From Desulfuromonadaceae bacterium (lineage in GTDB: Bacteria > Desulfobacterota > Desulfuromonadia > Geobacterales > Pseudopelobacteraceae): a DNA stretch of 53,664 nt. The first letter of the stretch is position 1, and each line of letters starts with the position of its first letter. Below the pieces are notes generated by a model that was not told where the DNA came from, ran no database searches, and worked only from the letters and a program-made list of their open reading frames with translations. Below are positions 3,108 through 39,181 of the stretch, one piece after another. The stretch is from positions 1-53,664 of the forward strand of contig JAQTXD010000016.1 of the NCBI GenBank assembly GCA_028688955.1, in the 5' to 3' direction. A program made the position numbers and the translations under genes.

Positions 3108-6100
3108 ATGGCTGTCGCTGCTGCACGTAAACCAGCTCCTGCAACAACAATCACCGCTCAACAGCCTCTGCGTGCGTCTGCACAGAAAACATCACAAAGC
3201 AGCAGTACAAAAAACAGCGGTTCGTCAGTCGGAACCCGCGTTGCCCCTCCCGTTATCCGCTTGAACACATCTGTTTCTCCTCCCTCGGCCAGTGCCATTC
3301 CCGAAGAAATACGGAAAGTGATTGTCTCACCGGGGCCGGGGGTAGAGCTTCCCGCCCAGATTCAACAGGCAATTACAGACAGCCTCCACATCGACGTAAA
3401 TCCGGTGCGAGTTCACAGCGACGGGTTGGCTAATGCTGCGGTAGACAGCATTGGCGCCCGGGCATTCACCTATGGGACACATATCTATCTCGGCTCGAAG
3501 GAAAGCTCCGCCGATCGTGCCTTGTTGGTGCACGAGGCGGCGCACGTCGTCCAGCAGCAGGCTCAACCTGGGGTGCAGATGAAAACAGGCAGTTCCGGAA
3601 GCAGCGCACTTGAGTCGGAGGCGGATGCAGCATCTGCTGCGGTCGGGCGGGGTGAAAGCTTCTCCGTGGCGGGACGAACCACCGGAGCGACCATTCAACG
3701 CCAGGACGGCAAGCCGTCTTTGTGGGAGAGAGGCACCAAGTGGCTGGGTGAAAAAGCAGACGCTGTTCTTGAGTTTAGTGAAAGCGTCGCCTGGAAACTA
3801 CTGGATCAGTTTGCTCCGGACCTGGTGCCTATCATTCGCCAGGGACCACTGGAATGGCTGAAGGAACGGGTGAGTTCCGCCCTTGAAGCGGTTTTCAACT
3901 CATTTATGGCACCGGTGCGCTCCATCATGGGTGCCGGACGCTGGCTGTCGAGCCAGTTTGCCCCGTTGATCACCTGGATTCAGGAAGCTGCGGCCAAGAT
4001 TGCGCAAAATGACTGCAGTCCGTTGCGGGAAGCGGCCGAGAAAATCGAAAAGTGTGCGCTCAAGCTGATCACACCGGTAGTTGAGAAACTGCAGGCCGTT
4101 GCAGAAAAAGTCAAAGGGTGGTTCACCGGCCTGTGGAACAAGTTCGGTGTGCCGGCCTGGAACTGGATCAAACAGTTCGCCGGTGCTCAGTGGGAAAAAC
4201 TGAAACAACTTGCAACGCTGATCTGGGAGAAGGCCGCTCCGATTCGCGAACGGCTGGCCAAAGCGTGGACCTGGATCAAGAACAAGCTCGGCATCGGTGA
4301 GGGTGCCGAGGGGCAGAACGGCATACTGCAGTGGGTGCAGGACAAACTTGCCGTAGCGTGGGACTGGATCAAGGCCAAACTCGAACCGTTCAAGAAAGAA
4401 TTGCTGATAATTGCCGGGGTGGTGGGTAGTATTGCGCTGCTGGCATCACCTGCCGGACCGCTGGTGGTTATCGGCGGGATTGTGTTCGGTGTGCTGCAGG
4501 GGATCCGCTGGATCAAGGCCAACTTCGGGAAAGGGGATGGGGTGGTGCGGGCTCGTACCTTCCTGGAAAAGACCCTCATCCCTTCGCTGCTGGGGGGCTT
4601 GAATAAGGCAACTGCCGCTGTGACGCGTATGGCATCATCCCTCAACGGGACTCTGGGTAAATTTGCTGCCGGAATGGGGCGGATGGTGAGTGCGGCTGCG
4701 GCATCCCTGTTGAAGTTTGTCGTCAGCGCGGTGCAATGGATCGCCACTCAGGTTACCGAATTGGCGCAGTGGGGGAGCGAAAAGCTGGCATCACTGTCAC
4801 GATGGGTGACGACGACCTTTGCCAAGCTTCAGCAGCGCCTGCAGCCGCTGCTCAGTTTTTTGGGTAAAGTCGGCGAAGTGGTTGTCGACATCATGAAGTT
4901 GCCCATGCTTGTCGTGGGCGCGCTCTGGAAAATGATTCCGGAATGTCTCCGTACCCTGTTTGTTGATTTCCTGGTCAATCAGATTCTCAAGCGGATTCCG
5001 ATCGTCAAGGATGTCATCGAACTGCTCCCCGGCGTCTGGTCAAAGCTTAAGGCGACCGGACTGATGCTCATTCGCAAAGTTTTTAAAGACGGCGACCTCA
5101 TAGGAGCCGCCTTTGAAATTTTCAAACTTGTCCTTGCCGCCCTGAATATTCCGCTGGAGTTGGTCACCGGCATTGTCAGGAAAGCGGCCACTGCCCGGGA
5201 CATGATACTGAAGGACCCGTTGGGATTCCTGGGCAACATGCTGCGTGCCATCAAGCAGGGCTTTGTCCAATTCGGCGAAAAGATCTGGGCGCATCTGACA
5301 AAATCCATCGTGGACTGGCTGAAGGGTGTGATCGAATCCGCCGGATTGAAACCGCCAGCAGACTTCTCCCTCGCTTCGGTGCTTGATTTTATCTTGCAGG
5401 TACTGGGACTCAGTGTGGAAAAGATCCTTGAACGGCTTGAAAAGAAGCTCGGCAAGGAGACAACCGATAAAATCCGCAAAGCCTTATCGACCATTGCCAA
5501 AATCTGGGAATGGATCAGCACCGCACTCAACGAAGGGCCGCAGGGAGTTTGGAATAACCTGAAACAGCGGCTTGGCGACCTGTGGGGTGTGCTGCTGGAC
5601 GGCGCTATTGGTTGGGTAACCGGCAAGGTAACCAAAATCGCTCTGCCACGCATCACTGCGGCGCTTGGTACGGCCCCCATCGGCGCTGTTGTCGAAGCGA
5701 TTGTGTTTCTCTACAACGCAATTCAGACCGCAGCCCAGTATGCCAAACGCATTCTGGAACTCGTCAGTTCCGTGCTGGACGGAATACTCGATATTGCCCG
5801 GGGAGCAATTGCCGGGGCAGCCAATATTGTCGAAGCCAGTCTCGCTCGCGCTCTGACGGTCGTGATCGGATTTTTTGCCAATTATCTTGGACTGGGTGAT
5901 CTGGGCAAGAAGCTCAAGGAAATTGTGGAGTCTATTCAGGAGAAGGTGAACAAGGCTATTGACTGGGTCATCGACAAGGTAATTGCCCTGGGTAAGGGAC
6001 TCATCAACGCGATTACCAAAGCGGCGAAGGGAGTGATGCAGTGGTGGAAAACTAAAAAGAAATTTAAGACGCTTAAGGGCGAAAGCCATACAATCTTTTT

Positions 6101-6956
6101 TAAAGGAGAAGGACGTAACGCTAAACTTATGATCGCAAGCAGCGAACGGGACTTTTTGCCCTTTATCATGAAGCTCGACACGAATAAAGATCCGGAAAAG
6201 GAAAAGGCGAAAGCAAAAGCAATCGAAACTGCTAAAAAAATCGATAACTTAACGGCAAGAGTCTCAACAAAAGATGGTGTCAAGGATGAGACGACTGATT
6301 TTGAAGAATTGACCAGACAACTTGCGGAACAAACGAAGATATTCATGGACAGGATAGATGACTTGCCCGCATCCGCAGTGCCTGAATATGGCCCCTTGAG
6401 TTCAGGGTATGCGACTTCAATGACAATTGAACCACTTACCAAGATTGGTCCACCCGGAACGGTACCGAGCGCATCAAGTGATAGATGGGAGCGATTGAAC
6501 ATGAGAAAGGAAATTGTGCGTAGCTATTACATACGAGGCCATTTACTAAATCACAATATTCATGGGCCTGGCACAACTTGGAAAAATTTGACACCTTTAT
6601 CACAGCAAGGAAACAAAAACCATTTAGTCTTAGTGGAAAGAGAAGTAAAAAATGCGGTTAGTAGCGGTGAAATACTTCATTACCAAGTTATTGCAAAATA
6701 TGAACGCAATGATAACACGGCATTGCTTGAACAATTGAAATCAACAAACCTGGATCAAATAACAAAAACAAATATTGGAAAAGTGATTCAGGAAGAGAGG
6801 TTTATTCCTTCTCATTTAGTTTGCTCCGCTTACACCTTGGAGAATGACGAAAAAACGGGAAAACGAAAAGTTAAAAAAATATTGATTGCTGCAGATACAA
6901 AAATTCCAAATCCAGTAGAAGATCAAGGAATTAATCAATATAACGTCGTAGGCTAA
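3108..6956 (+). CDS. Giant eCIS DUF4157 protein with C-terminal nuclease-like toxin domain
   Basis: A protein of 1282 residues with an AGGAG ribosome-binding site ten bases ahead of its ATG. Residues ~80-150 form a DUF4157 domain with the zincin-like motif HEAAH at 142-146. The middle (~200-970) is a chain of amphipathic helices rich in Trp and Lys (WIKNKLG, WDWIKAKLE and relatives) plus several hydrophobic stretches, reminiscent of tape-measure or pore-forming segments. From about residue 980 the DNA turns AT-rich. The tail contains RGHLLNHN (His1145), a GPG turn, NLTPLS (Asn1160) and a later His1172, an arrangement like beta-beta-alpha-metal nucleases. DUF4157 proteins are known eCIS cargo, so I infer an injected effector. 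The nuclease call is motif-based, and no immunity gene is recognised immediately downstream. Confidence 0.82.
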   Translation: MAVAAARKPAPATTITAQQPLRASAQKTSQSSSTKNSGSSVGTRVAPPVIRLNTSVSPPSASAIPEEIRKVIVSPGPGVELPAQIQQAITDSLHIDVNPVRVHSDGLANAAVDSIGARAFTYGTHIYLGSKESSADRALLVHEAAHVVQQQAQPGVQMKTGSSGSSALESEADAASAAVGRGESFSVAGRTTGATIQRQDGKPSLWERGTKWLGEKADAVLEFSESVAWKLLDQFAPDLVPIIRQGPLEWLKERVSSALEAVFNSFMAPVRSIMGAGRWLSSQFAPLITWIQEAAAKIAQNDCSPLREAAEKIEKCALKLITPVVEKLQAVAEKVKGWFTGLWNKFGVPAWNWIKQFAGAQWEKLKQLATLIWEKAAPIRERLAKAWTWIKNKLGIGEGAEGQNGILQWVQDKLAVAWDWIKAKLEPFKKELLIIAGVVGSIALLASPAGPLVVIGGIVFGVLQGIRWIKANFGKGDGVVRARTFLEKTLIPSLLGGLNKATAAVTRMASSLNGTLGKFAAGMGRMVSAAAASLLKFVVSAVQWIATQVTELAQWGSEKLASLSRWVTTTFAKLQQRLQPLLSFLGKVGEVVVDIMKLPMLVVGALWKMIPECLRTLFVDFLVNQILKRIPIVKDVIELLPGVWSKLKATGLMLIRKVFKDGDLIGAAFEIFKLVLAALNIPLELVTGIVRKAATARDMILKDPLGFLGNMLRAIKQGFVQFGEKIWAHLTKSIVDWLKGVIESAGLKPPADFSLASVLDFILQVLGLSVEKILERLEKKLGKETTDKIRKALSTIAKIWEWISTALNEGPQGVWNNLKQRLGDLWGVLLDGAIGWVTGKVTKIALPRITAALGTAPIGAVVEAIVFLYNAIQTAAQYAKRILELVSSVLDGILDIARGAIAGAANIVEASLARALTVVIGFFANYLGLGDLGKKLKEIVESIQEKVNKAIDWVIDKVIALGKGLINAITKAAKGVMQWWKTKKKFKTLKGESHTIFFKGEGRNAKLMIASSERDFLPFIMKLDTNKDPEKEKAKAKAIETAKKIDNLTARVSTKDGVKDETTDFEELTRQLAEQTKIFMDRIDDLPASAVPEYGPLSSGYATSMTIEPLTKIGPPGTVPSASSDRWERLNMRKEIVRSYYIRGHLLNHNIHGPGTTWKNLTPLSQQGNKNHLVLVEREVKNAVSSGEILHYQVIAKYERNDNTALLEQLKSTNLDQITKTNIGKVIQEERFIPSHLVCSAYTLENDEKTGKRKVKKILIAADTKIPNPVEDQGINQYNVVG

Positions 6957-34286: not shown

Positions 34287-34850
34287 TTAAGCCCCCGGCA
34301 GCAAACGTCTGGAGCGAATAAAGCGTATCATCATGGGTACACTGAACATTGCAACAAGAATGATCAGCATCGTAGTATTCGGGTCTTTGAAGTAAGTGTT
34401 GAGGCGCAGGGTCGAGATTGCAATTACGGCAAAGTAAAGCATGTCACCAGTAATAGCGATGGCCCACCCCGCAACGAATCCGTGTCCTGCTGCGTGTGCC
34501 GAAGCTCTCCCCGTCATAGGGTCAACACCGAACGCAATCATGATTAGACCAATCGGCCCAGCACCAGTCCCACTAACATGGGATACGCTGCGGGCCGTTG
34601 CGGCTTTCAAGGCGGCACTGAAACGTGCTAATATGCTAACCTTCCCGCAGATGACTGCGAGTAGCCGAAAAACCGGTTCAAACGAAAAAACCAGTACAAT
34701 ATCCGAAAGCAGATAGAGCAGTGCCGTGACAGGCCATGCCAGGCCTTTGGCCTGTGCGAGCATAACACCGGCAGGAATTCCACCTCCTACCGGGATAAGA
34801 AATAGTTTCAATACTGACAGCATATTTGTCGCCGGAATTACTTCAGTCAT
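34287..34850 (-). CDS. Integral membrane protein of unknown function
   Basis: 187 residues with about five hydrophobic segments (LKLFLIPVGGGIPAGVML, ALLYLLSDIVLVFSF, GAGPIGLIMIAFG, AIAITGDMLYFAVIAI, LIILVAMFSVPMMI). The repeated Gly-rich turns and the cytoplasmic basic tail fit a small transporter or channel-like protein. It resembles, from memory, a conserved proteobacterial family without an assigned role. It stands alone on the minus strand, convergent with cmoB. Confidence 0.75.
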   Translation of the reverse strand: MTEVIPATNMLSVLKLFLIPVGGGIPAGVMLAQAKGLAWPVTALLYLLSDIVLVFSFEPVFRLLAVICGKVSILARFSAALKAATARSVSHVSGTGAGPIGLIMIAFGVDPMTGRASAHAAGHGFVAGWAIAITGDMLYFAVIAISTLRLNTYFKDPNTTMLIILVAMFSVPMMIRFIRSRRLLPGA

Positions 34851-35184
34851 TGTTCGTCCTGTAGCGATAAAGTCATCCAGTTCTATGGGGGGAGAGCACG
34901 AGGTCTGGTTTCATGAGGTGAAAGCCATTTCAAACAGCACATCTTCCGCGTCTCAGACGTCAAAATGATCCCGTGTGTATCACCTGTTCAGTACGCCAGC
35001 AGCAGGTTATCCTGGCCATTTTGCGCTGTGTGCGGCTTGGTTTGAATCATTTCTGGCCTCGCTTTGACTCATGCTTGATATTTAACACCTCCCTGATATA
35101 CAACACATCCGGTGACGATTCTACCACATTTGGATACTCACTTTTTTCAGATTATATCCGGCTATAGCAAGTAAGAGGTGAACC
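34851..35184. other. Intergenic region upstream of the DsbA-like selenoprotein gene
   Basis: I find no gene in these 334 bases; open frames lack protein-like composition. The distal half is AT-rich and contains the second copy of the short TACCACATT...CACTTTTTTCAG repeat. Promoters for the divergent genes on either side must lie here but none is clear. Confidence 0.45.
35122..35150 (+). repeat. Short repeat, copy 2
   Basis: TACCACATTTGG followed by CACTTTTTTCAG matches the element at 27875-27902 at about 23 of 29 positions. It ends 34 bases before the DsbA-like gene. Confidence 0.3.
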
Positions 35185-35781
35185 ATGCAAACAGCACCCG
35201 TAGTAGAAGTCTTTTTCGACTACATTTGACCCTGGTGTTATCTCGGTACCGTGCGTACCGACCGACTCAGGCAGGATTATGGCGTGAATCTGATTATGAG
35301 GGTATTTCCCCTGCATCCGGAAATACCGGAAGCAGGCATGGAGCTGTCAGAGCTGTTTGCCGGTCGCGAAGCAATGATTGCGTCCATGCAGGCACGTCTT
35401 CAGCAGGTTGCCGCTGCGGAAGGGCTCCCTCTGACAAGCAGATCACGCACCTATAACAGCAGGCGGGCACAGGAACTTGGGAAATGGGCCGAAGCTCAGG
35501 GGTCAGGAAATGCGTTTTACAATGCAGTCTACCGGGCGTATTTCGTTGATGGTGTGAATATCGGCCTGATTGACGAGCTAACGACAATTGCCGCTTCCGT
35601 TGGGTTGTCTGCAGACGATGCACGCTCTGTTCTCGCCTCAGGACAGTATGCTGCCGCGGTTGATGCCGACTGGCAACTGGCTCTGGACAAGCGGATAACA
35701 GCTGTTCCAACCCATCTCCACGAGGGAAAAAGGTTGTCGGGATTCAGCTCGTACGATGACTTTGTCAGGTTGATCTCATAG
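35185..35781 (+). CDS. DsbA-family thiol oxidoreductase with in-frame UGA (probable selenoprotein)
   Basis: From the ATG at 35185 (GAGG ten bases upstream) the frame reads VEVFFDYI, then TGA at 35227-35229 (codon 15), then PWCYLG, and stays open to 35781. The active site of DsbA/FrnE-type proteins is CPWC, so the UGA stands exactly at the first, nucleophilic Cys: UPWC. A hairpin with a G-containing loop follows at bacterial SECIS distance. The total is 198 residues, normal for the family, with the cis-Pro segment AVPTH near the C-terminus. Standard gene calling would begin at 35251 and lose the catalytic site. A nonsense-mutated pseudogene is the alternative, but the rest is intact. Confidence 0.85.
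35243..35261 (+). promoter_or_regulatory. Candidate bacterial SECIS hairpin
   Basis: TCGGTAC and GTACCGA form a perfect seven-base stem with the five-base loop CGTGC. The apical loop lies 21-25 bases after the in-frame UGA, with G at its second position, fitting the bacterial SECIS requirement for a G near the top of a short loop. It is contained in the coding sequence, as expected for SelB-dependent decoding. Confidence 0.75.
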
Positions 35782-35829
35782 AAATGCTGATTTACGTCAG
35801 ATTCCACTCAAATGTACGGAAGGCATACA

Positions 35830-36804
35830 ATGAACAAGGCAATACGGTTCCATGAATACGGAGGAAGTGACGTCCTCCGCTGGGAAGAATGTGTCGCTGC
35901 AGAGCCGGGGACAGGTGAAGTTCGGATTCGCCATGAAGCTATTGGCGTAAATTTTGTTGATATCTACCAGCGCAGCGGACTGTATACCGTTCCGTTGCCC
36001 GCAATTGCAGGTAATGAAGGAGCCGGAGTTGTTGAATCGGTCGGTGCAGGGGTCTCGCGGGTAAAAGCCGGTGACCGGGTAGTCTACGCAGGCGTAATGG
36101 GATCATACAGTGAAACCCGCACTATTGCGGCTGACCGGCTCTGTATCCTGCCGGACGGGCTGTCGTTTGAACAGGGAGCTGCAATAATGCTCAAAGGTTT
36201 GACGGTTCGCTACCTGATCCGCAGAACCTACCGGGTGCAGCAGGGGGACACGGTTGTTTTCCATGCCGCTGCCGGAGGAGTGGGCTTGATAGCCTGCCAA
36301 TGGCTGAAGTCACTGGGTGCGCGGGTCATAGGAACAGCAGGTTCTGCTCAAAAGTGTGCCGTTGCTCTCAAGAACGGTGCAGATTACTGTATCAACTACC
36401 GAACGGAAGATATCGTCGGTAGAGTCAGGGAAATCACCAATGGTAAGGGTGTGCCTGTCGTGTACGATTCAGTCGGCAAGGACACGTTTGATACCTCGCT
36501 ACAATGTTTGCAACCGCTTGGATTGCTGGTGAGTTTCGGTAATGCTTCCGGCCCGGTACCACCGGTCAATCTCGGCCTGTTGGCGCAACATGGCTCGCTC
36601 TATGTTACGCGCCCGACCCTGGCAACCTACATCGCTGATCGCTCTGATCTTGAGGCTGCTGCGCAGGAAGTGTTTGATGCCGTTCTTTCAGGCAGCGTCC
36701 GGACAGATATCAACCAACGCTATCAACTCAAAGATGCGGCTCTGGCCCATCACGATCTTGAAATGCGTAAAACGACAGGTTCCAGTATCCTGCTGCCCCG
36801 CTAG
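35830..36804 (+). CDS. qorA: Zinc-free NADPH:quinone oxidoreductase
   Basis: The ATG at 35830 is preferred to one at 35812 because GGAAGG precedes it and it gives MNKAIRFHEYGG. 324 residues of the medium-chain dehydrogenase type without zinc ligands: GVNFVDIYQRSGLY, PAIAGNEGAGVVESVGAG, and the NADPH fold AAAGGVGLIACQWLKSLGA. It reduces quinones by one electron, probably in redox stress. It follows the DsbA-like gene by 48 bases and may share its transcript. Confidence 0.9.
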   Translation: MNKAIRFHEYGGSDVLRWEECVAAEPGTGEVRIRHEAIGVNFVDIYQRSGLYTVPLPAIAGNEGAGVVESVGAGVSRVKAGDRVVYAGVMGSYSETRTIAADRLCILPDGLSFEQGAAIMLKGLTVRYLIRRTYRVQQGDTVVFHAAAGGVGLIACQWLKSLGARVIGTAGSAQKCAVALKNGADYCINYRTEDIVGRVREITNGKGVPVVYDSVGKDTFDTSLQCLQPLGLLVSFGNASGPVPPVNLGLLAQHGSLYVTRPTLATYIADRSDLEAAAQEVFDAVLSGSVRTDINQRYQLKDAALAHHDLEMRKTTGSSILLPR

Positions 36805-36851
36805 GAAGGTACCGGGGCGCCGGACAACATCAGACGACGAAGAGGTGCTCA

Positions 36852-37523
36852 ATGAAAATACTCGCAATTAATGGTAGTCCCAAAGGCATGCACGGCAATA
36901 CCGGTCGTCTGCTTGAAGAGGTGCTGAGCGGAGTTGAGGAATTCGGGGCTGAAACAGAGATAGTAAATCTTAAAACAGTGCACGTTCAGCCCTGCATAGG
37001 GTGTGACGGCTGCCATAAAACAGGCATCTGTACTATCAAGGATGACTACGAAACCATCAAGGAAAGGCTGCTCGTCTGCGACGGTTTTATTCTGGCCAGT
37101 CCGAACTATATTTTCAGTGTCTCTGCCCAGATGAAAGCACTCTTTGATCGCTGCAATGGATTGATCCACTGTATGGCACTTGAGGACAAGTATGCCGCCA
37201 TGGTCGAAACATCGGGAGGTGGTGGAGATGAGGAGGTGTTGACGTACATGAGTCGCTTTGCCGGTACGCTCGGGGCAGTTACTGTCGGTGGAGTCGGGTC
37301 GGCCGTCGCCGGTATCAGGACGTTTCCCGATGAGGAGGATCTCTATAACAGAGCTCATGACCTTGGTCTGGGACTCTGCCAGAGCATCTCGGACAGACGG
37401 GTCTATCCTGAACAGGAAGGATTTCGAGAGGAATTCAGGTTACGGATGTCCGGTCTGGTGGATATAATGAAGGACTACTGGCCCTTTGAGCGGGAATACT
37501 GGGCGAATAAACGTGCCAGCTAG
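36852..37523 (+). CDS. Flavodoxin-fold NAD(P)H reductase with compact Cys motif (iron-sulfur flavoprotein type)
   Basis: 223 residues. The flavodoxin-like FMN site is INGSPKGMHGNTGRL at the N-terminus and SPNYIFSVSAQMKALFDRC in the middle. Four cysteines, 48, 51, 54 and 60, form the compact CX2CX2CX5C motif typical of iron-sulfur flavoproteins (Isf), which take electrons from ferredoxin and reduce oxygen or quinones. Its neighbours (quinone reductase, DsbA-like selenoprotein) suggest a redox-stress function. AGAGGTG precedes the ATG. Confidence 0.85.
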   Translation: MKILAINGSPKGMHGNTGRLLEEVLSGVEEFGAETEIVNLKTVHVQPCIGCDGCHKTGICTIKDDYETIKERLLVCDGFILASPNYIFSVSAQMKALFDRCNGLIHCMALEDKYAAMVETSGGGGDEEVLTYMSRFAGTLGAVTVGGVGSAVAGIRTFPDEEDLYNRAHDLGLGLCQSISDRRVYPEQEGFREEFRLRMSGLVDIMKDYWPFEREYWANKRAS

Positions 37524-37525
37524 AA

Positions 37526-37735
37526 GTGCTTGAATCACGATACCCTGACCGGCGGGGTCTGCCTGTGTTCAACTGTCTGGTCAAGGCGATCAGGGAGGAT
37601 TACGGAGCCGGCAGCTTTGGGAATGCTGGGGAGAAAAAATCCGGGATAGTGGCGGCGGTAGCTGCTGCTTATGATACTAATTTATGGAGTATGGAAGAAG
37701 TCACAAAATCCAGTGAGGAGAAACGCAATGAGTGA
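37526..37735 (+). CDS. Small conserved-looking protein of unknown function
   Basis: 69 residues beginning with GTG three bases after the preceding stop. It is soluble, with helix-forming segments (FNCLVKAIREDYGAGSFGN, GIVAAVAAAYDTNLWSMEE) and protein-like composition. Its end overlaps the start of the DUF1326 gene by eight bases, so translational coupling is likely. No cysteine cluster or enzyme motif is present apart from one Cys. I do not recognise the family. Its position inside a tight gene run is the main argument that it is real. Confidence 0.5.
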   Translation: MLESRYPDRRGLPVFNCLVKAIREDYGAGSFGNAGEKKSGIVAAVAAAYDTNLWSMEEVTKSSEEKRNE

Positions 37736-38351
37736 TAATGAAAAATCGCCCACATGGTGGGCGAAAGGCCTTTTGTTTGAGAATTGCAATTGTCAGCTGG
37801 TCTGCCCCGCCCATCTGTCCTTCAAGCAGAGTTGCACTCATGAGCGCTGTGTCGGCTATTGGGCGGTCCGCTTCGAGGAAGGGGTCTTTGGTGATGTCTC
37901 GTTGAACGGTCGCATGGCCCTTATTCTCTACGACTCTCCACAGCGGATGTACGATGGCGGCTGGACCGAGCGGATCTATCTGGATGAACACGCCGATGCA
38001 GCACAGAGGGAGGCTATCGAGACAATTTTCAAGGGGATATCTGGCGGACCATGGGCTATCCTGGCGAAATTCGTGACTACGTGGCTGGATTCCGGGACAG
38101 CAGCGTTCACGTTCGAGGATGAAGGTCGCAAGAAAAGTCTCTCGGTTGACGGATTAATTGAAACGCGGATCGAGACGCTGCGGGGACCCGATCCTGGAAG
38201 TGACCCTGTCTTGCATAATCTCTACAACACGATCCATGGCCCCACCCATGTACTCGCACGTGGTTCCTCCCGCTGCACCGACCGCGGTGTACCATTTGAC
38301 ACAAGCGGCACACATGCCCTGTATTCCAATTTTTCATGGGAAGGCCCATGA
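37728..38351 (+). CDS. DUF1326 domain protein
   Basis: The ATG at 37728 follows GAGGAGA. 207 residues with the DUF1326 start (WWAKGLLFENCNCQLVCPA), a Cys-rich region that looks metal-binding (CNCQLVC, CTHERC), then FKGISGGPWAILA and a C-terminal part containing HGPTHVLARGSS. No signal peptide. DUF1326 genes commonly accompany DUF2182 membrane proteins, as here with a four-base overlap, so a shared role in metal (perhaps copper) handling is probable but not established. Confidence 0.85.
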   Translation: MSDNEKSPTWWAKGLLFENCNCQLVCPAHLSFKQSCTHERCVGYWAVRFEEGVFGDVSLNGRMALILYDSPQRMYDGGWTERIYLDEHADAAQREAIETIFKGISGGPWAILAKFVTTWLDSGTAAFTFEDEGRKKSLSVDGLIETRIETLRGPDPGSDPVLHNLYNTIHGPTHVLARGSSRCTDRGVPFDTSGTHALYSNFSWEGP

Positions 38352-39181
38352 ACCGTAACGGAGACAAATCCGACGTACTATCGCTGGGTGAACGGCTGTC
38401 GGTCGTTGGCGGGCTGGTGATTGTTTCCACAATCTCCTGGGTTTACACCGTTCAGATGGCCCGGAGTATGGCGGGGGCACCGCACGCCACAGGAGCGGTT
38501 ATGGGGCATGGTTCCCACCAGATGGTCGGACATGAGGCGCTGCATTCTGCCGCCATGCCGCATCTGGTAAACTGGAGCATGGCAGAGGCCTGGATGACCT
38601 TTGTCATGTGGGCGGTCATGATGGCGGCGATGATGCTGCCAACCGTTATCCCCATGGTGTTGGCGTTTGCCAATGTGAACCGTCAGAGCGGAAGCAACGG
38701 AGTTCTCGTGCCGGTCGGTGCCTTTACCACGGGTTATCTCGGTGCCTGGGCCCTCTACTGCACAGGAGCCACGGCCGTTCAGTGGGGATTACTTCGAGCG
38801 GCGTTGATGTCGCCGGTAACTCTTGCCTCCGGACCGGTCCTTGGCGGTCTCCTGTTGATTGTTGCCGGAGTTTTTCAATGGACACCCTGGAAGGATGCCT
38901 GTCTGGAGAAATGCCGCAACCCCCTCGGGTTTATTCTTACTCACTGGAAACCGGGGCACCTGGGAGCGTTCAAACTCGGCAGCCGCTATGGACTGTATTG
39001 TGTGGGGTGCTGCTGGCTGCTGATGTTGATATGCTTTTCGCTGGGTGTTATGAACCTGGTATGGATGGCAGTTTTGACGATCTTTATGCTGATAGAAAAA
39101 ATCTCGTTCGCTGGGCACCTGTTCAGCCGCGTTGCGGGATTACTGCTGACGGTTTGGGGTGGTTGCATGCTTTTTCTGTGA
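38348..39181 (+). CDS. DUF2182 predicted metal-binding membrane protein
   Basis: The ATG at 38348 overlaps the upstream stop (ATGA) with GGAAGG before it; an ATG at 38336 is also possible. 277 residues with about six membrane helices. The first loop is His/Met-rich (MGHGSHQMVGHEALHSAAMPH), then WAVMMAAMMLPTVIPM, a KDACLEKCRNP cysteine pair, and GLYCVGCCWLLM. This is the classical DUF2182 pattern, predicted to bind metals at the periplasmic face. The pair with DUF1326 supports a joint function. Confidence 0.9.
   Translation: MNRNGDKSDVLSLGERLSVVGGLVIVSTISWVYTVQMARSMAGAPHATGAVMGHGSHQMVGHEALHSAAMPHLVNWSMAEAWMTFVMWAVMMAAMMLPTVIPMVLAFANVNRQSGSNGVLVPVGAFTTGYLGAWALYCTGATAVQWGLLRAALMSPVTLASGPVLGGLLLIVAGVFQWTPWKDACLEKCRNPLGFILTHWKPGHLGAFKLGSRYGLYCVGCCWLLMLICFSLGVMNLVWMAVLTIFMLIEKISFAGHLFSRVAGLLLTVWGGCMLFL

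Follow-up and report, generated by a model that had tools for sequence, protein, structure and literature searches.

A FrnE/DsbA-type gene of a Desulfuromonadaceae bacterium with an in-frame UGA predicted to encode selenocysteine

The locus and its neighbours

The window, i.e., the whole stretch of 53,664 nucleotides that was analysed, carries on its forward strand a single 198-codon frame running from an ATG at 35185 to a TAG at 35779–35781 and interrupted only by a TGA at codon 15 (Table 1). As the original prediction had stated, the frame is open on either side of this TGA, which occupies the place of the first cysteine in a CPWC motif. Ordinary annotation had also been expected to start at 35251, and the ORF list indeed holds only the 176-amino-acid ORF beginning with GTG at that position. 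The locus is a clear example of ordinary ORF calling stripping off an active site, and the gene is easily mis-annotated.

Table 1 Coordinates of the features at the locus.
Feature	Positions	Strand	Basis
FrnE/DsbA-type selenoprotein gene (predicted)	35185..35781	+	translation; PF01323; FrnE 5cp1; model pLDDT 95.7
In-frame UGA, predicted selenocysteine 15 (U-P-W-C)	35227..35229	+	TGA in 77/80 best loci, Cys in 3
Bacterial SECIS hairpin, predicted	35243..35261	+	-8.7 kcal/mol; covariation; low synonymous diversity
Probable ribosome-binding site AGAGGTG, 4 nt ahead of ATG 35185	35174..35180	+	sequence by eye
176-aa ORF from GTG, without the active site	35251..35781	+	output of standard ORF calling
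Qor-type NADPH:quinone reductase; gap of 30 bp to the selenoprotein gene, co-transcription possible	35812..36804	+	NF008024, 430.8 bits, cut-off 348
NADPH-dependent FMN reductase-like flavoprotein	36852..37523	+	PF03358

It could be argued that translation ends at the UGA and that the true product is the shorter ORF, devoid of an active site. That ORF does exist, yet its GTG falls inside the loop of the hairpin described below, an AGAGGTG stands ahead of the ATG at 35185, and the residues that are invariant in 18/18 aligned proteins before the TGA (8 and 11–13) and after it (15–21) would be purposeless, making such a product very unlikely.

The TGA codon terminates 13 of the 29 chosen ORFs of the window and is therefore a normal stop there, not a generally reassigned codon. 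Many other frames in the window remain open through one TGA when judged by length, and by eye these are ORF ends or lie inside longer genes. Scanning positions 34850–37700 found no sigma-70-like promoter sites (2.1 expected in shuffles) and two terminator-like sites (2.0 expected), so the scan is uninformative.

Inspecting the surroundings of related loci gave little indication of a functional partner. When the ten window neighbours were compared with 82 loci (tblastn, E<=1e-8), the FMN reductase adjoined the gene only in L035 and L045, where its homologue comes straight after the selenoprotein gene; a 34% match was found in L056. The Qor link was absent from the tested loci, except for L064, in which a 37% match lies on the opposite strand. 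The FMN reductase of L035, 76% identical, lies immediately after the gene, whereas Qor intervenes in the window. A close FMN reductase is encoded in 25 of 39 genomes of the genus, mostly on contigs other than that of the selenoprotein gene. Clustering of 662 neighbouring ORFs revealed no convincing recurrent partner, and the largest cluster (30 loci) consisted of opposite-strand ORFs lying over the gene itself. Likewise, among the first 25 of 95 Pfam families found in 74 co-directional next-door ORFs, the most frequent was inositol monophosphatase with four members, and DJ-1/PfpI had three. A conserved operon was thus rejected, as the neighbouring genes are not conserved across loci, and for the same reason genome context assigns no function to the gene.

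Elsewhere in the window, positions 3108–6956 encode a 1282-amino-acid protein with an eCIS_core domain (PF13699) and, near the C-terminus, a non-specific endonuclease domain (PF13930). Just downstream of the locus, a DUF1326 protein is followed by a protein with PF09948 (PpoB2, copper chaperone) at 37671–39181.

Recurrence of the UGA and the selenocysteine machinery

The genus and order were covered by 58 genomes, among them the own genome, and 18 of these match the gene when partial matches are counted. Of the full-length matches, which also number 18 and comprise a second copy from the own genome, 17 carry one TGA at the same codon; the eighteenth, in genome G033, carries TGT (the same gene is referred to as L046 below). 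The second own copy (L035) lies on the minus strand of contig C54 (4853–5443) and is 75% identical. In public genome contigs, TGA was found at codon 15 in 77 of the best 80 of 439 related loci, while the other three encode cysteine: L046 (TGT), L102 (TGC) and L122 (TGC). As these 80 loci were collected with a query made up mostly of Sec forms (one of the two search peptides was written with Cys) and are the best of 439, the proportion describes the near clade and not all FrnE proteins. The TGA carriers include records not titled as metagenome-assembled genomes (MAGs), namely Geobacter argillaceus, Pelotalea chapellei, Geomonas limicola, Geobacter sp. OR-1 and Pelovirga terrestris.

In a sample of the phylum, 45 of 297 genomes gave 47 matches at E<=1e-30, of which 41 contain exactly one TGA, five are cysteine forms with CPFC (L158–L162) and one is partial (L163), the stretch with the TGA lying further upstream and in a different frame. 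For the phylum-sample loci L129–L157, TGA was read at codon 15 in 28 of 29, L149 being missed by the pattern. The only stop encountered at codon 15, in these loci as in the best 80 genome loci, is TGA. The alignment proposed in the original prediction places Sec or Cys at the TGA column in the homologues, with the five CPFC proteins as distant Cys forms. A single TGA-containing locus was found in a viral contig collection (L124, IMGVR_UViG_3300037076_000473), and homologues in plasmid (320) and phage (3) records were all below 60% identity. By eye, L124 is neighboured by a phage repressor-like gene and a Mu-type transposase region, and it may represent the host flank of a prophage.

The recurrence of the codon bears on two rival explanations. 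One is a sequencing or assembly error at a Cys codon, and the window assembly is indeed fragmented (212 contigs). Yet, the same TGA occurs in independent assemblies, some of them not titled MAGs, as well as in the second own copy on C54, which refutes an error and leaves it a negligible probability. The other takes the gene for a decaying dsbA/frnE copy in which the TGA arose as a nonsense mutation. Relics do exist in relatives: L034 in genome G003 loses the frame after ~30 codons, and short partial matches were found in G030, G039 and G008 (a match in G015 is split at a run of N). However, 77/80 of the best loci share the same TGA with open flanks, TGA being the sole stop there; none of the 77 TGA loci has a further stop inside the match, so that the degraded frames named in the original prediction as evidence against a selenoprotein are not what the close homologues show. 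In addition, 21 columns are invariant across 62 proteins, and synonymous diversity is lowest over the hairpin. A pseudogene is refuted by the TGA recurring at one codon across orders and is regarded as extremely improbable.

The relics themselves (L034, L040, L033 and L039) comprise 5' pieces with the TGA that soon run out of frame, plus 3' pieces, one of which lies ~1.2 kb past the end of an intact copy (G039:C2). By eye, L034 keeps six of the seven hairpin pairs, while L040 is without a stem.

The absence of selB and selC had likewise been named as an outcome that would count against selenocysteine, and both genes were found: the own genome encodes selA, selB, selC and selD. The tRNA-Sec gene (selC; 77.6 bits, anticodon TCA) lies directly beside selB (358.1 bits), selA (605.5 bits) is on the same contig as selB, and selD scores 371.9 bits, the best match per sel family exceeding the curated cut-off in each case. 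Among 58 relatives, selB was above the cut-off in 49, and the gene is patchy among genomes possessing the Sec machinery. Relative G024 carries the TGA gene, yet its assembly, which is 96% complete, shows no selA, and neither selB nor tRNA-Sec exceeds the cut-off. Since selA, selB and tRNA-Sec are neighbours in the own genome (G000) and in G033, one missing contig could explain G024, which is the simplest, although not a proven, reading.

Alternatively, either a reassigned code or near-cognate read-through may put Cys or Trp at the UGA in the absence of selenium, and the Cys of distant homologues is in line with such decoding. Against it stand the use of TGA as an ordinary stop in the window, the complete Sec machinery and a hairpin that would be unneeded, yet is lost in Cys form L122 and kept in the neighbouring TGA form L103. 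Decoding as Cys or Trp is accordingly considered very improbable.

The hairpin downstream of the UGA

The hairpin is UCGGUAC-CGUGC-GUACCGA, with arms at 35243–35249 and 35255–35261 and the loop at 35250–35254, 20 nt after the UGA. This is the geometry originally described, a perfect 7-bp stem with the loop CGTGC 21–25 bases past the A of the UGA. Bacterial SECIS elements are constrained to an apical loop of 3–9 nt, a stem of 4–16 bp and a distance of 16–37 nt from the UGA, with a G in the first two loop positions and a minimum free energy (MFE) <= -7.5 (PMC13188914). The window hairpin lies within the constraints as printed there (loop 5 nt, stem 7 bp, spacing 20 nt, -8.7 kcal/mol), and its loop has G at position 2, followed by U.

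Considering the window sequence alone, the hairpin is modestly unusual and constitutes weak evidence. The 19-nt hairpin (-8.7 kcal/mol) has a z of -2.87, with 4/200 shuffles as good, and the 45 nt from the UGA onwards have an MFE of -16.3 kcal/mol (z -1.92, 9/200 shuffles as good). When the 17 codons following the UGA were recoded synonymously at random 20,000 times, a Watson-Crick stem of at least 7 bp arose in 0.54% of the cases, rising to 34% when G-U pairs are allowed. Conservation, on the other hand, lifts the hairpin far above chance. All seven pairs are kept in 53 of the 77 TGA loci and at least six in 76, and 76/77 have a G at loop position 1–2 with a G or U after it. Over the 48 TGA rows chosen for the covariation test, pairing holds in 94.9% of the cells, versus at most 48.5% with the partner slid, and RNAalifold predicts exactly the window stem. 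Both-sided changes occur in five of the seven pairs, the clearest being A-U/G-C at columns 19–33, and the covariation score was reached by 0/500 shuffles. Further pair types in this test were not above shuffles (180/500 as high), and pair 20–32 is broken in 10/48 rows.

The codons beneath the hairpin are also constrained. In 25 close genes, a set that includes one Cys form (L046) and leaves out L067 and L068 as out of register, the five codons scored within 20–26 have a mean synonymous codon diversity of 0.03, versus 0.50 for 97 other conserved codons (Mann-Whitney p 1.6e-4, which is indicative, as the sequences are related), while the next lowest non-overlapping stretch has a mean of 0.28. 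Gly21 (GGT), Val23 (GTG) and Arg24 (CGT) use the same codon in 25/25 of these genes. By eye, almost all of the best 80 loci have either Val (GTN) or Gly (GGN) at codon 23 under the loop, in most cases as GTG or GGG; these two codons keep G-U or G-G in the loop, and the protein may be constrained at this position by the RNA element.

The Cys forms differ in what remains of the stem. In L122 it has collapsed (-0.4 kcal/mol), in contrast to the perfect stem (-7.6) of L103, a neighbouring TGA form, and it is not formed in L102. L046 retains 6/7 pairs (-7.3 kcal/mol), as expected for a recent single-base change.

The selenoprotein reading is thus supported by TGA conservation, hairpin covariation, synonymous constraint, Cys in distant relatives and the sel genes, and it is carried by this comparative evidence, not by the hairpin alone. 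Relative G024 and the 5.91% contamination flagged for the window assembly count against it. With high confidence, the UGA at 35227 is predicted to be translated as selenocysteine by SelA, SelB, SelC and SelD, directed by the hairpin at 35243–35261, making the gene a putative selenoprotein gene.

Predicted protein, evolution and known relatives

The translated protein matches the DSBA domain (PF01323) from residue 6 to 197 across the TGA (E 2.3e-35, 122.5 bits versus a cut-off of 25.6), and together with U15-P-W-C18 this is the domain and motif by which DsbA-like UxxC selenoproteins are recognised. FrnE of Deinococcus is the best solved relative by sequence (PDB 5cp1, E 3.2e-18; profile E 6.9e-34). 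A first structure model built from 18 close sequences reached a pLDDT of 65.2 and was not used, while a model from 62 sequences (pLDDT 95.7) was used for fold matching. The predicted model matches FrnE 5cp1 with a TMq of 0.91, an rmsd of 1.8 and 30% identity. The best match by both sequence and fold, in combination with a CP(W/F)C-type motif, points to the FrnE subfamily (cd03024). The only Cys/Sec residues of the predicted protein are at positions 15 and 18; there is no C-terminal CXXXXC and no Cys beyond residue 18, yet as some FrnE proteins are also missing this motif, its lack does not exclude membership. Val174-Pro175 is taken to be the usual cis-proline site of the fold. As no signal peptide was seen by eye, the protein is probably cytoplasmic. 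The product is therefore probably a short, cytoplasmic FrnE-type thiol-disulfide oxidoreductase, an activity predicted from its sequence.

The sole NCBIfam model matching the window protein is the Rcas_1661 family (seleno)lipoprotein NF041057, to which it scores 20.1 bits, far from the cut-off of 190. The same model matches 52 of the 62 aligned proteins at E<=0.001 (best 2e-11), and only three thioredoxin-fold models match the 62 aligned clade proteins, the window's included, at this threshold. Judging from so few model matches, the clade is probably under-annotated.

By analogy with FrnE relatives, the most likely mechanism would begin with an attack of the Sec15 selenolate on a disulfide of the substrate or on an electrophile; Cys18 would resolve the intermediate as a selenenylsulfide, and the Sec15-Cys18 pair would be re-reduced by a thiol system of the cell, either thioredoxin or a low-molecular-weight thiol. 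The likely role would be to reduce or isomerise disulfides in the cytoplasm during oxidative, metal or electrophile stress, as reported for the Deinococcus protein.

In a midpoint-rooted tree of 86 proteins (L076 and L077, both TGA, were left out), one clade with support 100/98 comprises 78 Sec and four Cys rows, apart from four distant Cys rows, and the Sec/Cys label changes five times. Cys form L046 groups with Sec form L044 (97/86), L102 lies inside a Sec group (99/83) and L122 joins Sec form L103 (100/36), while L158 sits on a long branch and its placement is unsure. The simplest reading suggests a single clade dominated by Sec, within which Cys has replaced it several times, which is only a lead, as the proteins were sampled by similarity to Sec forms. 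Whether the clade is an old one in which Sec is ancestral and the Cys forms are repeated later losses is evenly balanced. In the available text of PMC1794560, 33 Cys-to-Sec versus 15 Sec-to-Cys events are given over the families studied, and the DsbA-like row has no Sec-to-Cys event, so a clade with ancestral Sec would run the opposite way. If true, a one-pair cytoplasmic FrnE would be chemically committed to selenium across Geobacterales and Desulfobacterales and, if record titles are right, also in some Pseudomonadota. Neighbouring Sec and Cys variants (L044 versus L046, L103 versus L122) offer natural comparisons for why selenium is kept.

The same fold is found in 2-hydroxychromene-2-carboxylate isomerase and kappa-class GST (PDB 2imd, 3fz5, 1r4w; TMq 0.77–0.82), but these entries match less well than FrnE, and the window protein keeps both redox positions. 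These enzymes are not known to use a CxxC redox pair. FrnE of Deinococcus radiodurans (DR_0659; PDB 5cp1, 5cnw) shares the CPWC site and the DSBA fold, whereas the window protein has a predicted Sec for the first Cys, is shorter and is without the C-terminal CXXXXC. As described in the available text of PMC8945050, FrnE is predicted to be cytoplasmic, has CP(W/F)C, acts as a disulfide isomerase and reduces insulin, and a mutant is sensitive to cadmium and diamide. Many members, though not all of them, carry the CXXXXC, to which regeneration of the active site is ascribed (PMC8945050).

Published DsbA-like UxxC selenoproteins, compared by description, have PF01323, UxxC and a SECIS just after the UGA in common with the window gene. 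Nine sequences in COG2761 were reported in the Sargasso Sea survey (PMC1088965), a row in PMC2398784 reads DsbA 1, pfam01323, UxxC, 63, and the kind is also covered in PMC9312934 and in the review table of PMC13188914, while two sequences are reported for Asgard archaea (PMC11227280). The available text of PMC12013277 does not mention DsbA, that of PMC1242214 mentions neither DsbA nor FrnE, and the word FrnE is absent from the available text of PMC13188914, PMC1794560 and PMC1088965; it does occur in PMC6627142 and PMC3965025. As far as the text of PMC1794560 goes, none is given for its three Geobacter species, but DsbA-like selenoproteins are listed in Anaeromyxobacter dehalogenans, Desulfovibrio desulfuricans and Desulfotomaculum reducens, which agrees with the original prediction's placing of such proteins in anaerobic deltaproteobacteria and adds Desulfotomaculum. 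This kind of selenoprotein is thus already known, DsbA-like UxxC proteins having been published since 2005, and the present gene adds a member.
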